A stretch of 34,207 nucleotides of DNA from the NCBI GenBank assembly GCA_030017955.1, contig JASEGR010000028.1, forward strand, positions 1-34,207, read 5' to 3'. This DNA is from Candidatus Eisenbacteria bacterium (GTDB taxonomy: Bacteria > Eisenbacteria > RBG-16-71-46 > JASEGR01). A program made the translations under genes and the position numbers. Shown here piece after piece: positions 9,055 to 22,670 of the stretch (positions are counted from its first letter, which is position 1; every line of letters begins with the position of its first letter). A model generated the notes under the pieces. That model did not search any database. It was not told the origin of the DNA and was given only the letters and a program-made list of their open reading frames with translations.

Positions 9055-10716
9055 TCACCTCTTCTCTTTCTTCACGATTTCACCATGAAAAAGTTCCACA
9101 ATCGTTTTCACAGTTTCATTCTCCAACGGGTCTTCCCCTTTTGCCCCACTTATCTCTGTGACTTCTCCGTCAACCACCTTAAGAGAAAGAGGCTTCCCAA
9201 ACGCCTTCTTAATTTCATCGAGAATTATTTCTCTGTTTGCTTTATCCTCGATCCGCTCCCTATGGAATCTCTGATCTCGAGGCAATTTGACTGTCAACTC
9301 TGTCTCGGAGATAGACAGAACTTTTGCCTCGCTCAAGAAACCCCAGAGAGAAGTTTTCTTCTTCTTAACGGCGAGAAGGAGGACTTCCCACCCCTTTGCC
9401 GCTTCTTCTACGCGCCCGGGTTCAACGTGTGACGGCGCCGGCTTTTGCGCCTGAGGGTGGGCACCCGAATCGCGCGAGGCGGGGTCCCGATCGTCGTCCC
9501 GGACCACATGCTTCTTTCCAGCTCTGTTTTCATGGTCCAACTCGTCTCCGCCATCTCCAACAAACTTCTTCTCAATGACCGAGAGTTTTTCTATCAATTC
9601 CTTCACGCTGACTGTGGAATCAAGATTCGCCATTTCCACGAGCGCAAGTTCCAGATGGAGCCGCGGCACAGGACTCCTCTTCATCAAATATGCGGCGGAG
9701 TTGAGAATTCTTATCAGTCTGACCAGGTCTGCATCGTTCGTTTTTGCGCTCTGCTCCGCAAGCCTTGAGAGCGAACTCTTCAGTATCCCGGCGGGCTCGG
9801 CAAGAGACCGGTCAATTGAGACGAGCAGCAGGTGTCTCAGGTGCTCGATAAGCGAGCCTGCGAATTCATCGAGATCATGCCCCTCCTTGTAGAGCTCCTC
9901 GAGGACTTTGAGCGTCTCGGCCGGCTTCCCATCAAGAACGGATTGTGTGATTTCAAAGAAAACATCTTCCTTGGGTATGCCGAGAAAGTTCCGGACAACC
10001 TCTGCCGTAACAGTTCCCTCCGTACCGGTCACAAGTTGGTCAAGCATGCTCTCGGCATCCCTCATGCTGCCTTCCGCCTTTTTCGCAATGACTGCGAGGG
10101 CCTCATCCTCAACGGAGAAATGTTCTTTTTTCGAGACCATCTTGAGTCTTTCGACAATCTTCTCCGGGAAGATTCTCCTGAAATCGAACCGCTGGCACCG
10201 GGACAGGATCGTCGGTGGAATCTCGCTCGGCGCAGTCGTGGCCATGATGAAAATCACGTGCGAAGGAGGCTCTTCAAGTGTCTTGAGGAGTGCATTGAAA
10301 GCAGGCGTCGTAAGCATGTGCACTTCGTCAATCACGTATATCCTGTACCTGGAACCGGCAGTCGCATACTTTATTTTCTCTCTGATCTCTCTGACCTCAT
10401 CAATTCCGCGGTTTGATGCGCCGTCAATTTCAAGAAAATCAAGACTTGACCCGATAAGCATTTCTTTACATGTATTGCACTCGTTGCACGGATTTCTCTT
10501 TGGTCCGTTCTCGCAGTTGATCGCCCTTGCGAAGACCCGTGCTGCCGTCGTTTTCCCGACGCCTCTTGATCCGCTGAACAGATATGCGTGCCCAACCCTG
10601 CCGGCTTCAATTGCATTCATGAGGCAGGTCGTCACATGCTCCTGTCCCACTATCTCTTCAAAGACTCTTGGTCTCCACCGTCGCGACAAAACCTGATACG
10701 GGATTTTTTCTTGCAT
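9055..10716 (-). CDS. dnaX: DNA polymerase III subunit gamma/tau
   Basis: A 553-residue clamp-loader ATPase. It begins YQVLSRRWRPRVFEEIVGQ and has Walker A GSRGVGKTTAARVFA (~49-63), a zinc-binding region with CENGPKRNPCNECNTC, Walker B VIDEVHML and the sensor LSRCQRFDFR. The C-terminal ~170 residues are a low-complexity linker plus a tau-like domain. GGAGAAAG lies a few nucleotides upstream of the ATG at 10716. The gene begins 29 nt after the SRP RNA 3' end, so the two are probably one transcript. I saw no A6G slippery site for programmed frameshifting. Confidence 0.95.
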   Translation of the reverse strand: MQEKIPYQVLSRRWRPRVFEEIVGQEHVTTCLMNAIEAGRVGHAYLFSGSRGVGKTTAARVFARAINCENGPKRNPCNECNTCKEMLIGSSLDFLEIDGASNRGIDEVREIREKIKYATAGSRYRIYVIDEVHMLTTPAFNALLKTLEEPPSHVIFIMATTAPSEIPPTILSRCQRFDFRRIFPEKIVERLKMVSKKEHFSVEDEALAVIAKKAEGSMRDAESMLDQLVTGTEGTVTAEVVRNFLGIPKEDVFFEITQSVLDGKPAETLKVLEELYKEGHDLDEFAGSLIEHLRHLLLVSIDRSLAEPAGILKSSLSRLAEQSAKTNDADLVRLIRILNSAAYLMKRSPVPRLHLELALVEMANLDSTVSVKELIEKLSVIEKKFVGDGGDELDHENRAGKKHVVRDDDRDPASRDSGAHPQAQKPAPSHVEPGRVEEAAKGWEVLLLAVKKKKTSLWGFLSEAKVLSISETELTVKLPRDQRFHRERIEDKANREIILDEIKKAFGKPLSLKVVDGEVTEISGAKGEDPLENETVKTIVELFHGEIVKKEKR

Positions 10717-10745: not shown

Positions 10746-11018
<273 letters not shown>

Positions 11019-19330: not shown

Positions 19331-19669
19331 CTAACTCAGCACTCGCTTGAGGAAGTGGGCCAGAAGCCATGTTCCGAGTGCTGCGACCGTGAGAATCACG
19401 GCATAGCGTCGCCAATGGACAAGCGAAGCAGGACTGCCGTCGGCCGTCAAACCGCGGAAATAGCGAACATCAGCATATCGCACAAGAACAAGCGAGCCAA
19501 ACGTAAACCAATACGCGGCATCAAAGGCAGAAAGGAATTTCGCCGGTTTTTCTATAATGAGGACCAGAAGCAAAACAGCAATTATGTTACCAAAGCACAT
19601 CCAATAGAGACGAAGAAAGCAACCCGCGCCTTGCGAAAGATCTTCTTTCGGCTCTTGCATGTCACACAT
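19331..19669 (-). CDS. Small membrane protein, unknown
   Basis: A 112-residue protein with two to three hydrophobic helices (YWMCFGNIIAVLLLVLII near residue 23, WFTFGSLVLV near 54 and YAVILTVAALGTWLLAHFL near 88). I do not recognise a family with certainty. The ATG codons at 19669 and 19660 both have weak ribosome-binding sites. It appears to be the first gene of the six-gene minus-strand operon and is separated from divergent nikR by 243 bp. Confidence 0.6.
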   Translation of the reverse strand: MCDMQEPKEDLSQGAGCFLRLYWMCFGNIIAVLLLVLIIEKPAKFLSAFDAAYWFTFGSLVLVRYADVRYFRGLTADGSPASLVHWRRYAVILTVAALGTWLLAHFLKRVLS

Positions 19670-19764
19670 CCAGTCTGCGCCTACTGCGCCGTTGACCGGA
19701 CGGCGGCCCGACCATCCGCAGAGCCTGCGGCAGGTATCTCCCCCCGCACCCTTGAGAAGCTCGC

Positions 19765-19863: not shown

Positions 19864-19892
19864 TTGACAAACATCTCTCCACCGTGTTACCT
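19864..19892 (+). promoter_or_regulatory. Possible nikR operon promoter
   Basis: TTGACA (19864-19869) is followed after 17 nt by TTACCT (19887-19892), a weak -10 that overlaps the left half of the NikR-type operator. If used, transcription would start near 19899 with a very short leader. Confidence 0.4.
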
Positions 19893-19911
19893 TCTGGTCG
19901 AAAGGTAACAC
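19884..19911 (+). promoter_or_regulatory. NikR-type operator, GTGTTAC-N14-GTAACAC
   Basis: A perfect 10-bp dyad (GTGTTACCTT and AAGGTAACAC, 8-nt spacer) whose outer heptamers GTGTTAC and GTAACAC are exactly 14 nt apart. This is the form reported for Geobacter-type NikR rather than the E. coli site. It ends one base before the nikR ATG and covers the AAAGG ribosome-binding site, so bound repressor would block both transcription and, as an RNA hairpin, possibly translation. Confidence 0.75.
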
Positions 19912-19912
19912 T

Positions 19913-20350
19913 ATGAAAAAGAAATCCTTATCCAGATTTAGCGTTTCTATGGCCGGCGATCTTGTGCGACAACTCGACGCCATGTCGAAAGCAAAGGGCT
20001 ACGCCAACCGGTCTCAGGCCATTGCCGACATGGTGCGCGCGCACCTTGTCGAACATCACAGCCAGATCGGAAGTCACGAAATAACGGGGACGGTAACGGT
20101 TGTCTACGACCATCATAAGCGAAATATCCAGGCGCTCCTGACTGACATTCAACACGATCACCAGAACTTGATAATCGCCACCTTGCACGTGCACCTGGAT
20201 CATCACAACTGCATGGAAGTTCTCGCTGTCCGCGGACGGGCCCATGAGGTCAAGCACGTCGCCGACAAGCTGATCGCTGCGAAAGGTGTGACGCACGGAA
20301 AGCTGACAGTAACGACGACAGGAAAAGCAGTGTCACATGCACATACCTGA
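19913..20350 (+). CDS. nikR: Nickel-responsive transcriptional regulator NikR
   Basis: A 145-residue NikR. Residues ~6-45 form a ribbon-helix-helix DNA-binding domain (LSRFSVSMAGDLVRQLD), and the rest is the ACT-like metal-binding domain. H81, H92, H94 and C100 have exactly the spacing of the E. coli high-affinity nickel ligands H76, H87, H89 and C95. The His-rich tail (SHAHT) is additional. The gene stands directly behind a matching palindrome, so autoregulation is likely, and its end overlaps nikMN by 14 nt. Presence of NikR argues that the linked importer carries nickel rather than cobalt. Confidence 0.94.
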   Translation: MKKKSLSRFSVSMAGDLVRQLDAMSKAKGYANRSQAIADMVRAHLVEHHSQIGSHEITGTVTVVYDHHKRNIQALLTDIQHDHQNLIIATLHVHLDHHNCMEVLAVRGRAHEVKHVADKLIAAKGVTHGKLTVTTTGKAVSHAHT

Positions 20351-21332
20351 CGGATTCATTGACGCAAAGACAGCTCTGGCTTCGAGTGCAATAGCGGCCG
20401 CCGGGCTTGGCATTGCCCTGGCCCGTGTCCGGCGTGCGGTCCCGCCTCAGCGCATCCCGCTCATCGGTCTGGCCTCGGCTTTCGTGTTCGCAGCGCAGAT
20501 GTTGAACTTTCCGGTCGCAGGCGGGACATCCGGTCACCTGATCGGCGCCGTCCTGGCCGCCGTGCTGCTGGGTCCAAGCGCAGCCATACTGGTCATTAGC
20601 TCAGTTCTGTTCCTCCAATGCTTCATGTTTGCCGATGGAGGCGTAACTGTGCTTGGAGCGAATATTTTCAACATGGGGATTGTTGCGCCCGGTTTGGGCT
20701 ATGCGATCTATGTTCTTGTTCGCCGCGCCGCCGGAAGTGGACTTCGCGTCCGTCTTCTTGGTACTGCATTTGCGGCCTGGTGTTCCATTGTAGCAGCATC
20801 AATCGCGTGCGCCGCGGAGCTGGCGCTGTCGGGCACAGTCGCCTGGCGGGTCGCCTTCCCCGCAATGGTCAACATTCACATGGTGATCGGCATCGGGGAA
20901 ACATTGATAACGACTCTTGTTGTCGCTGGGGTCTGCCGCGTGCGGCCTGAGTTGCTGATGGAGGACCGCCAGCCCAATCTGCGGACCAACTATGCGGAGC
21001 TGGTCGCGTATGGATTGCTGATATCACTGGGATTGGTCATCTTCGTGAGCCCGTTTGCCTCCAAATGGCCGGACGGTCTTGAGAAAGTCGCGGAGCTGTT
21101 TGGTTTTGAGCACAGGGCGGCGACAAGACCGGTTGTGGCGTCCCCGTTTCCAGACTACACGATGCCGGGCGAGAACTCCGCCGTGTTGTCAACGTTAGTA
21201 GTTGGATGCGTCGGCACTGTGGCCGCTTTCGTTTTCGCCTACTTGCTGGCGCGCTTCCTGACGCCGCGGAGTAGACCGGACGACGGGCGTCAATCTGGAG
21301 GCGATGCCGATCATGCGCCAACATCTTCTTAG
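20337..21332 (+). CDS. nikMN: ECF nickel/cobalt transporter, fused substrate-binding NikM and NikN (CbiMN-like)
   Basis: A 331-residue membrane protein. It starts MHIPDGFID; the N-terminal Met-His forms the metal site in this family. Residues 1-~205 are the CbiM/NikM S-component (PVAGGTSGHLIGAVLAAVLLG; NIHMVIGIGETLIT). The C-terminal ~110 residues with SPFASKWPDGLEKVAELFGF form the PDGLE domain of NikN/CbiN, plus a last membrane helix. One-chain MN fusions are known in nickel systems. It overlaps nikR upstream and nikQ downstream, indicating coupled translation. Nickel is inferred from NikR; cobalt transport cannot be excluded. Confidence 0.9.
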   Translation: MHIPDGFIDAKTALASSAIAAAGLGIALARVRRAVPPQRIPLIGLASAFVFAAQMLNFPVAGGTSGHLIGAVLAAVLLGPSAAILVISSVLFLQCFMFADGGVTVLGANIFNMGIVAPGLGYAIYVLVRRAAGSGLRVRLLGTAFAAWCSIVAASIACAAELALSGTVAWRVAFPAMVNIHMVIGIGETLITTLVVAGVCRVRPELLMEDRQPNLRTNYAELVAYGLLISLGLVIFVSPFASKWPDGLEKVAELFGFEHRAATRPVVASPFPDYTMPGENSAVLSTLVVGCVGTVAAFVFAYLLARFLTPRSRPDDGRQSGGDADHAPTSS

Positions 21333-21927
21333 CCCATATCAGCATGGCCAAAGCCCAATCCATCGCCTGCCTGCAACTCTGAAGCTCATAGTATCGATCA
21401 TCTTTGTGCTTGGGATAGTTCTGCTCCCCCGTGGAGCTTGGTTGGCATACGCAATTCCAGGCCTTGCACTCTTACTGATAGCCGCGCTGTGCCGGGTACG
21501 CCCCCGGCACCTGGCAACAAGGCTTCTCTGGCTGGAGCCATTTGCCGTGGGCGCGGCGCTTCTCTCGCTTCTGCAGCCAAACGGGACGCTGGTCTTCCTG
21601 ACCATGCTGTCCAAGAGTACGCTCTGCCTCTTCTGCATGGTTCTGCTCTCAAGCACAACGCGGTTTTCGGAAATTCTCTCCGTGTTGTGGCGTTTCCGCG
21701 TGCCGGCTCTGTTCGTCACCACGCTTGCACTTACCTACCGCTATCTTTTTCTCCTCGTGGATGAGATGCAGCTGATGCTTCGTGCGCGCCGCAGCCGCAG
21801 CTTCTCGCGCGGCCGTCTTCAAATGTGGCGAGCGATGGCCACAACCATTGCCCAGCTTTTTGTGCGTACTTCTGAACACGCCGAGCGCATCTATGCCGCC
21901 ATGTGCGCACGGGGATGGAGAACATGA
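21304..21927 (+). CDS. nikQ: ECF transporter transmembrane (T) component NikQ/CbiQ
   Basis: A 207-residue membrane protein with about five helices and the coupling motif of the T-component, LRARRSRSF (~residues 159-167), before the C-terminal AERIYAAMCARGWRT, which is the family's usual end. It joins the S-component to the ATPase. Its start overlaps nikMN by 29 nt and its stop overlaps the nikO ATG (ATGA). Confidence 0.9.
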   Translation: MPIMRQHLLSPYQHGQSPIHRLPATLKLIVSIIFVLGIVLLPRGAWLAYAIPGLALLLIAALCRVRPRHLATRLLWLEPFAVGAALLSLLQPNGTLVFLTMLSKSTLCLFCMVLLSSTTRFSEILSVLWRFRVPALFVTTLALTYRYLFLLVDEMQLMLRARRSRSFSRGRLQMWRAMATTIAQLFVRTSEHAERIYAAMCARGWRT

Positions 21928-22670
21928 ATGCTTTGGATGTCAGTAACCTGAGCTACACTTACCCGGATGGAACAGAGGCGTTACGCAATATCACTTTCTC
22001 TGTAAGGGAAGGCGAACGGGTGGGGTTGATCGGTCCGAACGGCGCGGGCAAGTCCACATTGTTCCTGCACCTGAATGGACTCCTGCCGGAGCGGCTTGGC
22101 CGGCCACCCCGGGTTCATGTCTTTGGGACGCCGGTTATCGACGCGCATGCGGCTGCGATCAGAGCACAGGTCGGAATGTTGTTTCAGGATCCGGATGACC
22201 AACTGTTCTGCCCGACGGTTTGGGAAGATGTCGCATTCGGCCCTCAGCAGCTTGGACTCAGCGGGCCGGGCTTATCGAGGCGGGTAGCCCAGGCCTTGGA
22301 GCAGGTTGACCTCACGGGATTTGGAGAGCGTCATCCGCATCATTTGAGCCGTGGTGAGAAGCGCCGGGTATGTCTGGCGGGACTGCTGGCCTGCGAGGCC
22401 AGACTGCTCGTACTGGACGAACCAACAAGCGACCTGGACCCACGTGGGCGAAGAGAACTCAAAACGCTTCTAGCGGCTCTGCCGATAACACAACTCATCG
22501 CGACTCATGACCTGGAGCTCGTCGTCGAGACATGTCCCAGGGTGATTGTGTTGGATCGCGGCGGCATCGTGGTTGAAGGAGAAACTGCGGAGCTACTATC
22601 CGATGAGGCCTTAATGCTTGCTCATGGGCTGGAACGCCCCCACATTCTTCGCCACCTTCACCCGCACTAA
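21924..22670 (+). CDS. nikO: ECF nickel/cobalt transporter ATP-binding protein NikO/CbiO
   Basis: A 248-residue ABC ATPase with Walker A GPNGAGKSTLF, Q-loop MLFQDPDDQLFCPTVWEDV (the DDQLF form typical of ECF ATPases), a signature LSRGEKRRVCLA (LSGGE with Arg in place of the first Gly), Walker B LLVLDEPTSDLDP and switch IATHDLE. The frame is open to a GTG at 21903, but the ATG at 21924 overlaps the nikQ stop as ATGA, the usual coupling, and is chosen. Last gene of the plus-strand operon; it ends 9 bp from the convergent gene. Confidence 0.92.
   Translation: MNALDVSNLSYTYPDGTEALRNITFSVREGERVGLIGPNGAGKSTLFLHLNGLLPERLGRPPRVHVFGTPVIDAHAAAIRAQVGMLFQDPDDQLFCPTVWEDVAFGPQQLGLSGPGLSRRVAQALEQVDLTGFGERHPHHLSRGEKRRVCLAGLLACEARLLVLDEPTSDLDPRGRRELKTLLAALPITQLIATHDLELVVETCPRVIVLDRGGIVVEGETAELLSDEALMLAHGLERPHILRHLHPH

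Follow-up and report, generated by a model that had tools for sequence, protein, structure and literature searches.

A candidate NikR operator merged with the predicted promoter of a nikR-nikMN-nikQ-nikO operon in a Candidatus Eisenbacteria genome

What is the function of an inverted repeat that ends a single base before the start codon of a nickel sensor gene: is it bound as DNA by the nickel-responsive regulator NikR, does it fold as RNA over the ribosome-binding site, or does it do both? The question is raised by a contig of 34,207 nucleotides from a Candidatus Eisenbacteria genome (the whole contig is referred to below as the window), in which the sequence immediately upstream of nikR reads GTGTTACCTTCTGGTCGAAAGGTAACAC and corresponds to GTGTTAC-N14-GTAACAC with no mismatches. 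In this genome, the arms of the dyad are 10 bp long each (GTGTTACCTT/AAGGTAACAC), and its last base, 19911, is separated from the ATG at 19913 by one base. The initial annotation of this locus had described the geometry of the dyad exactly (half-sites 14 nt apart, 10-bp arms, an end one base before the ATG) and had interpreted it as a Geobacter-type NikR operator, at which repression could act on transcription and also sequester the ribosome-binding site in RNA.

The protein encoded downstream of the dyad displays a ribbon-helix-helix N-terminus and a C-terminal nickel domain and scores above the cut-offs of two NikR profiles (PRK04460, 173.8 bits with a cut-off of 105; PRK02967, 135.3 bits with a cut-off of 83). 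It aligns over its full length with the structure in PDB entry 2bj1 (E 1e-40) and also matches 1q5v (E 6e-27). A gap-free alignment to E. coli NikR confirmed that all four square-planar nickel ligands, three histidines and one cysteine, are present at the E. coli spacing (Table 1); their E. coli counterparts are H76, H87, H89, and C95.

The nikR gene is followed by nikMN, nikQ, and nikO, so that the M, N, Q, and O components of a nickel energy-coupling-factor (ECF) transporter are found in one cluster beside the sensor. The nikMN product is at most 67% identical to those encoded by nikMN genes adjoining related nikR genes. As every gene in the series overlaps the preceding one (by 14 nt in the case of nikR and nikMN), one promoter probably serves nikR and the importer, and a single site can control both. 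The linkage to nikR and the absence of a cobalamin riboswitch from the window suggest that the substrate of the transporter is nickel, not cobalt. [NiFe]-hydrogenase-like large subunits, which would be nickel users, are encoded on two other contigs of the genome, and a CODH/prismane search gave no match.

Table 1 Features of the nikR locus, with positions in the window
Feature	Position	Strand	Basis or remark
−35-like hexamer TTGACA (perfect)	19864..19869	+	14 nt upstream of the dyad; position conserved in relatives
Predicted NikR operator GTGTTAC-N14-GTAACAC, 28 bp	19884..19911	+	7-bp arms conserved; published consensus; N14 site at nikR of relatives
Probable extended −10 TGT-TACCTT, in the left arm	19885..19893	+	Placed by its conserved spacing from the −35 (18 nt in the window; 16-19 nt in related loci)
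Predicted transcription start region, within the operator	19898..19902	+	From the position of the −10
Shine-Dalgarno-like AAAGG, inner right part of the operator	19901..19905	+	7 nt upstream of the ATG
nikR, 145 aa, nickel-responsive ribbon-helix-helix regulator; ligands H81, H92, H94, C100	19913..20350	+	NCBIfam PRK04460; PDB 2bj1, 1q5v
nikMN (CbiM-like S component and CbiN-like part, fused)	20337..21332	+	Best matches CbiM/CbiN models, below curated cut-offs
nikQ (CbiQ-like T component)	21304..21927	+	TIGR02454, 117.7 bits, cut-off 111.8
nikO (CbiO-like ATPase)	21903..22670	+	Energy-coupling-factor ATPase models, E down to 1e-63, below curated cut-offs

The same N14 dyad accompanies NikRs that are 59-82% identical to that of the window in Verrucomicrobia, Lentisphaerae, Sumerlaeota, Zixibacteria, and Hydrogenedentota. 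Conservation was quantified in 30 loci that have upstream DNA available and whose NikR reaches at least 59% identity (the window, L012-L032, L059, L084, L085, L108, L110, L111, L112, and L114, where L025 and L059 are near-duplicates), and the ATG that fits the alignment was taken as the start codon in MAGs. An N14 dyad with no more than three half-site mismatches is located at the nikR start in 23 of these loci, all 23 with a spacer of 14, and in 18 of the 30 exactly one nucleotide separates it from the start codon. Elsewhere, the dyad ends 2 nt (L015) or 3 nt (L032) before the start or 8 nt before a GTG (L110), or it overlaps the start codon (L027 and L030, the latter with a perfect dyad across the ATG). 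The dyad matches L084 and L085 each proved to mark a nikR gene that shares the layout of the window. Seven close loci of the set carry no dyad (L019, L021, L025, L026, L031, L059, and L108). In more distant loci, from delta-proteobacteria, Bacteroidetes, and Deferribacteres, no operator was found near nikR at up to three mismatches, and an Omnitrophota locus (L035) displays an N13 site with two mismatches. Matches with 0-1 mismatch in the genomes of L092, L095, and L096 are sited within long open frames and were set aside as chance occurrences.

Alignment of the loci on the dyad also brings a second element into register, TTGAC(A/G/C/T), positioned 12-15 nt upstream of the dyad. Requiring at least five of six matches to the hexamer 11-16 nt upstream of the dyad, we found a −35 in 12 of 15 loci, the window included, compared to an average of 0.3 and at most 4 in 2000 trials with shuffled upstream DNA, these being the same 15 loci on which the rule was first noticed. 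Control windows placed elsewhere upstream scored in 0-1 loci, barring those that overlap the −35 position. Nine additional sites, which constitute a small and related set and include L084 and L085, both seen before this second test, contained a −35 in five cases compared to 0.19 expected. Dyad-bearing relatives that do not have a good −35 at the expected distance are L024, L029, L032, L085, L116, and L117.

The conserved position of the −35 places the −10 at dyad positions 5-10 and a TG at positions 2-3, which would create an extended −10 element of the TGn-TAnnnT type within the left arm. The −10 hexamer of the window is weak, as it agrees with TATAAT in three of six positions (T1, A2, and T6). 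Evaluated as a σ70 promoter with a spacing of 16-18 nt, the region thus combines a strongly conserved −35 position with a 3/6 −10 that is confounded with the operator half-site. A generic promoter scan reported nothing at the site because the −10 is under its threshold. Transcription usually starts 6-8 nt downstream of the −10 hexamer. The predicted start is therefore near dyad position 17, at about 19900, and the mRNA would begin at the Shine-Dalgarno sequence, with a leader about twelve bases long.

This placement bears on the proposal that the dyad has a second role in RNA, in which NikR binding to DNA is complemented by a 10-bp hairpin that buries the Shine-Dalgarno sequence and lowers nikR translation. 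Provided that the whole dyad is transcribed, such a hairpin would be stable, at −13 to −14.5 kcal/mol with a z of about −3 to −4, and would leave the Shine-Dalgarno sequence about 90% paired. The probable transcription start, however, is within the dyad and would leave its left arm outside the mRNA. Nor did we find a stem kept by compensatory change, by which a Shine-Dalgarno-sequestering hairpin could be recognized: of 17 relatives, 9, 9, and 11 form the inner pairs 8-21, 9-20, and 10-19, respectively, as many as expected for permuted partners, and compensatory change is not clearly in excess over the helix as a whole. Furthermore, the Shine-Dalgarno sequence would be largely unpaired in many relatives, and in four relatives left-arm position 4 has changed from T to C with its partner unchanged, which breaks the RNA pair but leaves TGn-TA intact. 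As the inner pairs are at chance level and the left arm is probably absent from the mRNA, the sequestration suggested in the initial annotation finds no support, and we regard dual control as unlikely. On the right, the inner bases A(A/G)AGG hardly vary and recur in almost every related site, as a Shine-Dalgarno sequence would be expected to do; the inner bases on the left are variable. The 10-bp arm in the window is probably best read as a 7-bp operator arm followed by a −10 tail, CTT, that complements the Shine-Dalgarno sequence by happenstance.

Repression by promoter occlusion, and not by RNA folding, would then be the most likely mode of action, and we propose the following model. When nickel is sufficient, nickel-loaded NikR would bind the two GTGTTAC half-sites and cover the −10 element and the transcription start of its own promoter. 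The nikR-nikMN-nikQ-nikO operon would be shut off, limiting both nickel import and the production of further NikR. When nickel is scarce, NikR would leave the site and RNA polymerase would use the promoter TTGACA-18 nt-(TGT)TACCTT. We consider it highly probable that this nickel-dependent autorepression of the overlapping operon, exerted by NikR covering its own promoter, accounts for the locus as a whole.

The assignment of the dyad to NikR draws on known operators. De novo prediction in delta-proteobacteria yielded GTGTTAC-[N13/14]-GTAACAC as the NikR signal upstream of nikMNQO (Rodionov et al. 2004, PMC545781). The window site is equal to this consensus in 14 of 14 half-site bases, its N14 spacer is within the N13/14 range, and it is likewise directed at a nickel ECF transporter, with the nickel transport genes nikR-nikMN-nikQ-nikO directly downstream. 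The sites of that study are located 20-197 nt upstream of transporter, nikK, hydrogenase, or hypothetical genes, none being given for nikR itself (PMC545781), whereas the window site fronts nikR at a distance of 1 nt from the ATG, belongs to another phylum, and has a spacer that is always N14 in the close relatives examined. The E. coli operator at nikABCDE, GTATGA-N16-TCATAC (PMC7055735), is also a 28-bp inverted repeat at which a nickel-dependent ribbon-helix-helix regulator represses a nickel importer, as predicted for the window, but it differs in the sequence of its half-sites and in its target, the NikABCDE importer. The first strand of NikR differs as well, being RFSVSM in the window and RVTITL in E. 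coli. NikR of Geobacter uraniireducens, studied in the Chivers laboratory, reportedly binds a GTGTTAC-type repeat.

Considering (i) the published half-sites, (ii) the location of the site in front of nikR-nikMN-nikQ-nikO, and (iii) the retention of its position across several phyla, the dyad is very likely to be a NikR operator and nikR to be autoregulated, in agreement with the initial annotation. Because the motif is short and palindromic, like many others, it could in principle be the operator of another regulator that happens to control nikR. This is very improbable given that the half-sites agree in full with a NikR motif derived independently in delta-proteobacteria and that, within the phylum, nikR sites with 0-1 mismatch are confined to the two genomes that encode a NikR of this type; the phylum has two further 0-1 mismatch matches, both in genomes in which no NikR was found. 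A chance or non-regulatory inverted repeat can be dismissed almost entirely, as about 0.0002 perfect 10-bp dyads with the same gap are expected per 243-bp intergenic region and the dyad occupies the same position in 18 loci from several phyla.

To define a possible regulon, the genome was searched for the same dyad. At 0-1 mismatches, the nikR site is the single match in 3.1 Mb, and the window contains no second match at up to three mismatches. The next-best match in the genome has two mismatches and lies within a long ORF (C4:32464). The degenerate pattern GTRTTAY-N11-16-RTAAYAC, in which each half-site has two R or Y positions and the spacer ranges from 11 to 16, again matched the nikR site and nothing else in 3.1 Mb, and the inverted half-site arrangement reported for Desulfotalea had no match in the genome. 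With no other 0-1 mismatch or inverted site, and with the two-mismatch site inside an ORF, no further regulon member was retained. The absence of other copies near nickel genes had been put forward as evidence that would count against the operator. The copy is indeed single, but this does not refute the site because that copy lies on the nickel importer operon itself.

The designation 'Geobacter-type' is appropriate for the DNA motif, which follows the delta-proteobacterial consensus, but not for the organism. The source genome belongs to the same GTDB class as another Candidatus Eisenbacteria genome (G032) and is the sole member of its order among the genomes compared. Its NikR is most similar to those of Verrucomicrobia MAGs (81-82% identity), next to which it is placed in the NikR tree, and the closest NikR group overall is that of Verrucomicrobia and Lentisphaerae. 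A NikR match is present in 10 of 47 genomes of the phylum, the source included, and besides the source a close NikR was found in G032 only. As NikRs are few in the phylum and only that of G032 is close, horizontal transfer of this NikR appears likely from the sequence comparison; a binning error of the nikR contig is possible.

More tentatively, a NikR lineage that extends across Eisenbacteria, Verrucomicrobia/Lentisphaerae, Sumerlaeota, and Zixibacteria may have fixed a merged 28-bp element in which an extended −10, a transcription start, an operator, and a ribosome-binding site coincide. Its sister branch may be represented by four Verrucomicrobiota NikRs (L118, L119, L120, and L123, 52-56% identity), whose diverged dyad, e.g. 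GTATTAC-N14-GTAATAA, is located across the nikR start codon. The right half-site is coding in these loci (e.g. ATGAAAAATCGTAATAAC, translated as MKNRNN), and their mRNA may be nearly leaderless.

The operator type itself is already known; what is new is where it is placed, its occurrence beyond Proteobacteria, and the merged layout. The open-licence literature searched contained no description of a NikR operator in these uncultured phyla, and a prior description of the layout is possible. The delta-proteobacterial NikR motif would be of much greater age, or of much wider distribution, than was apparent when it was first described, and uncultured phyla would possess a precise and testable nickel switch. 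The layout supplies a simple rule for finding such sites in other genomes: a dyad that ends 1 nt before the nikR ATG and a TTGAC 12-15 nt upstream of it.

Two related loci display additional features. In a Victivallis vadensis MAG (L028), where nikMN is upstream of nikR, a second NikR-like site, TTGTTAC-N14-GTAACAC (1716-1743), is located upstream of nikMN, with a perfect TTGACA 12 nt upstream of the site and the nikMN match about 160 nt downstream. This site is one of the nine used in the additional −35 test. In L085 (G069, contig 277), the operator-bearing nikR is divergent from genes for a ZnuA-like metal-binding protein and a metal ABC ATPase, as judged by eye from the ORFs, which suggests a different metal importer beside NikR.

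Elsewhere in the window, positions 19698-19751 on the reverse strand match the Rfam family RF03057, nhaA-I, at 50.1 bits (the gathering score is 37); this class is reported to be a lithium riboswitch (PMC9646797). The match is upstream of a divergent ORF of 112 aa (19331-19669) whose product looks membrane-bound and matches no Pfam family at E 0.01. An octopine-dehydrogenase-like gene and a mechanosensitive-channel-like gene come next, and no recognised nhaA adjoins the match. A large bacterial SRP RNA (10749-11015, reverse strand) stands beside dnaX (9055-10716, reverse strand) with tRNA genes nearby, an ordinary housekeeping region.
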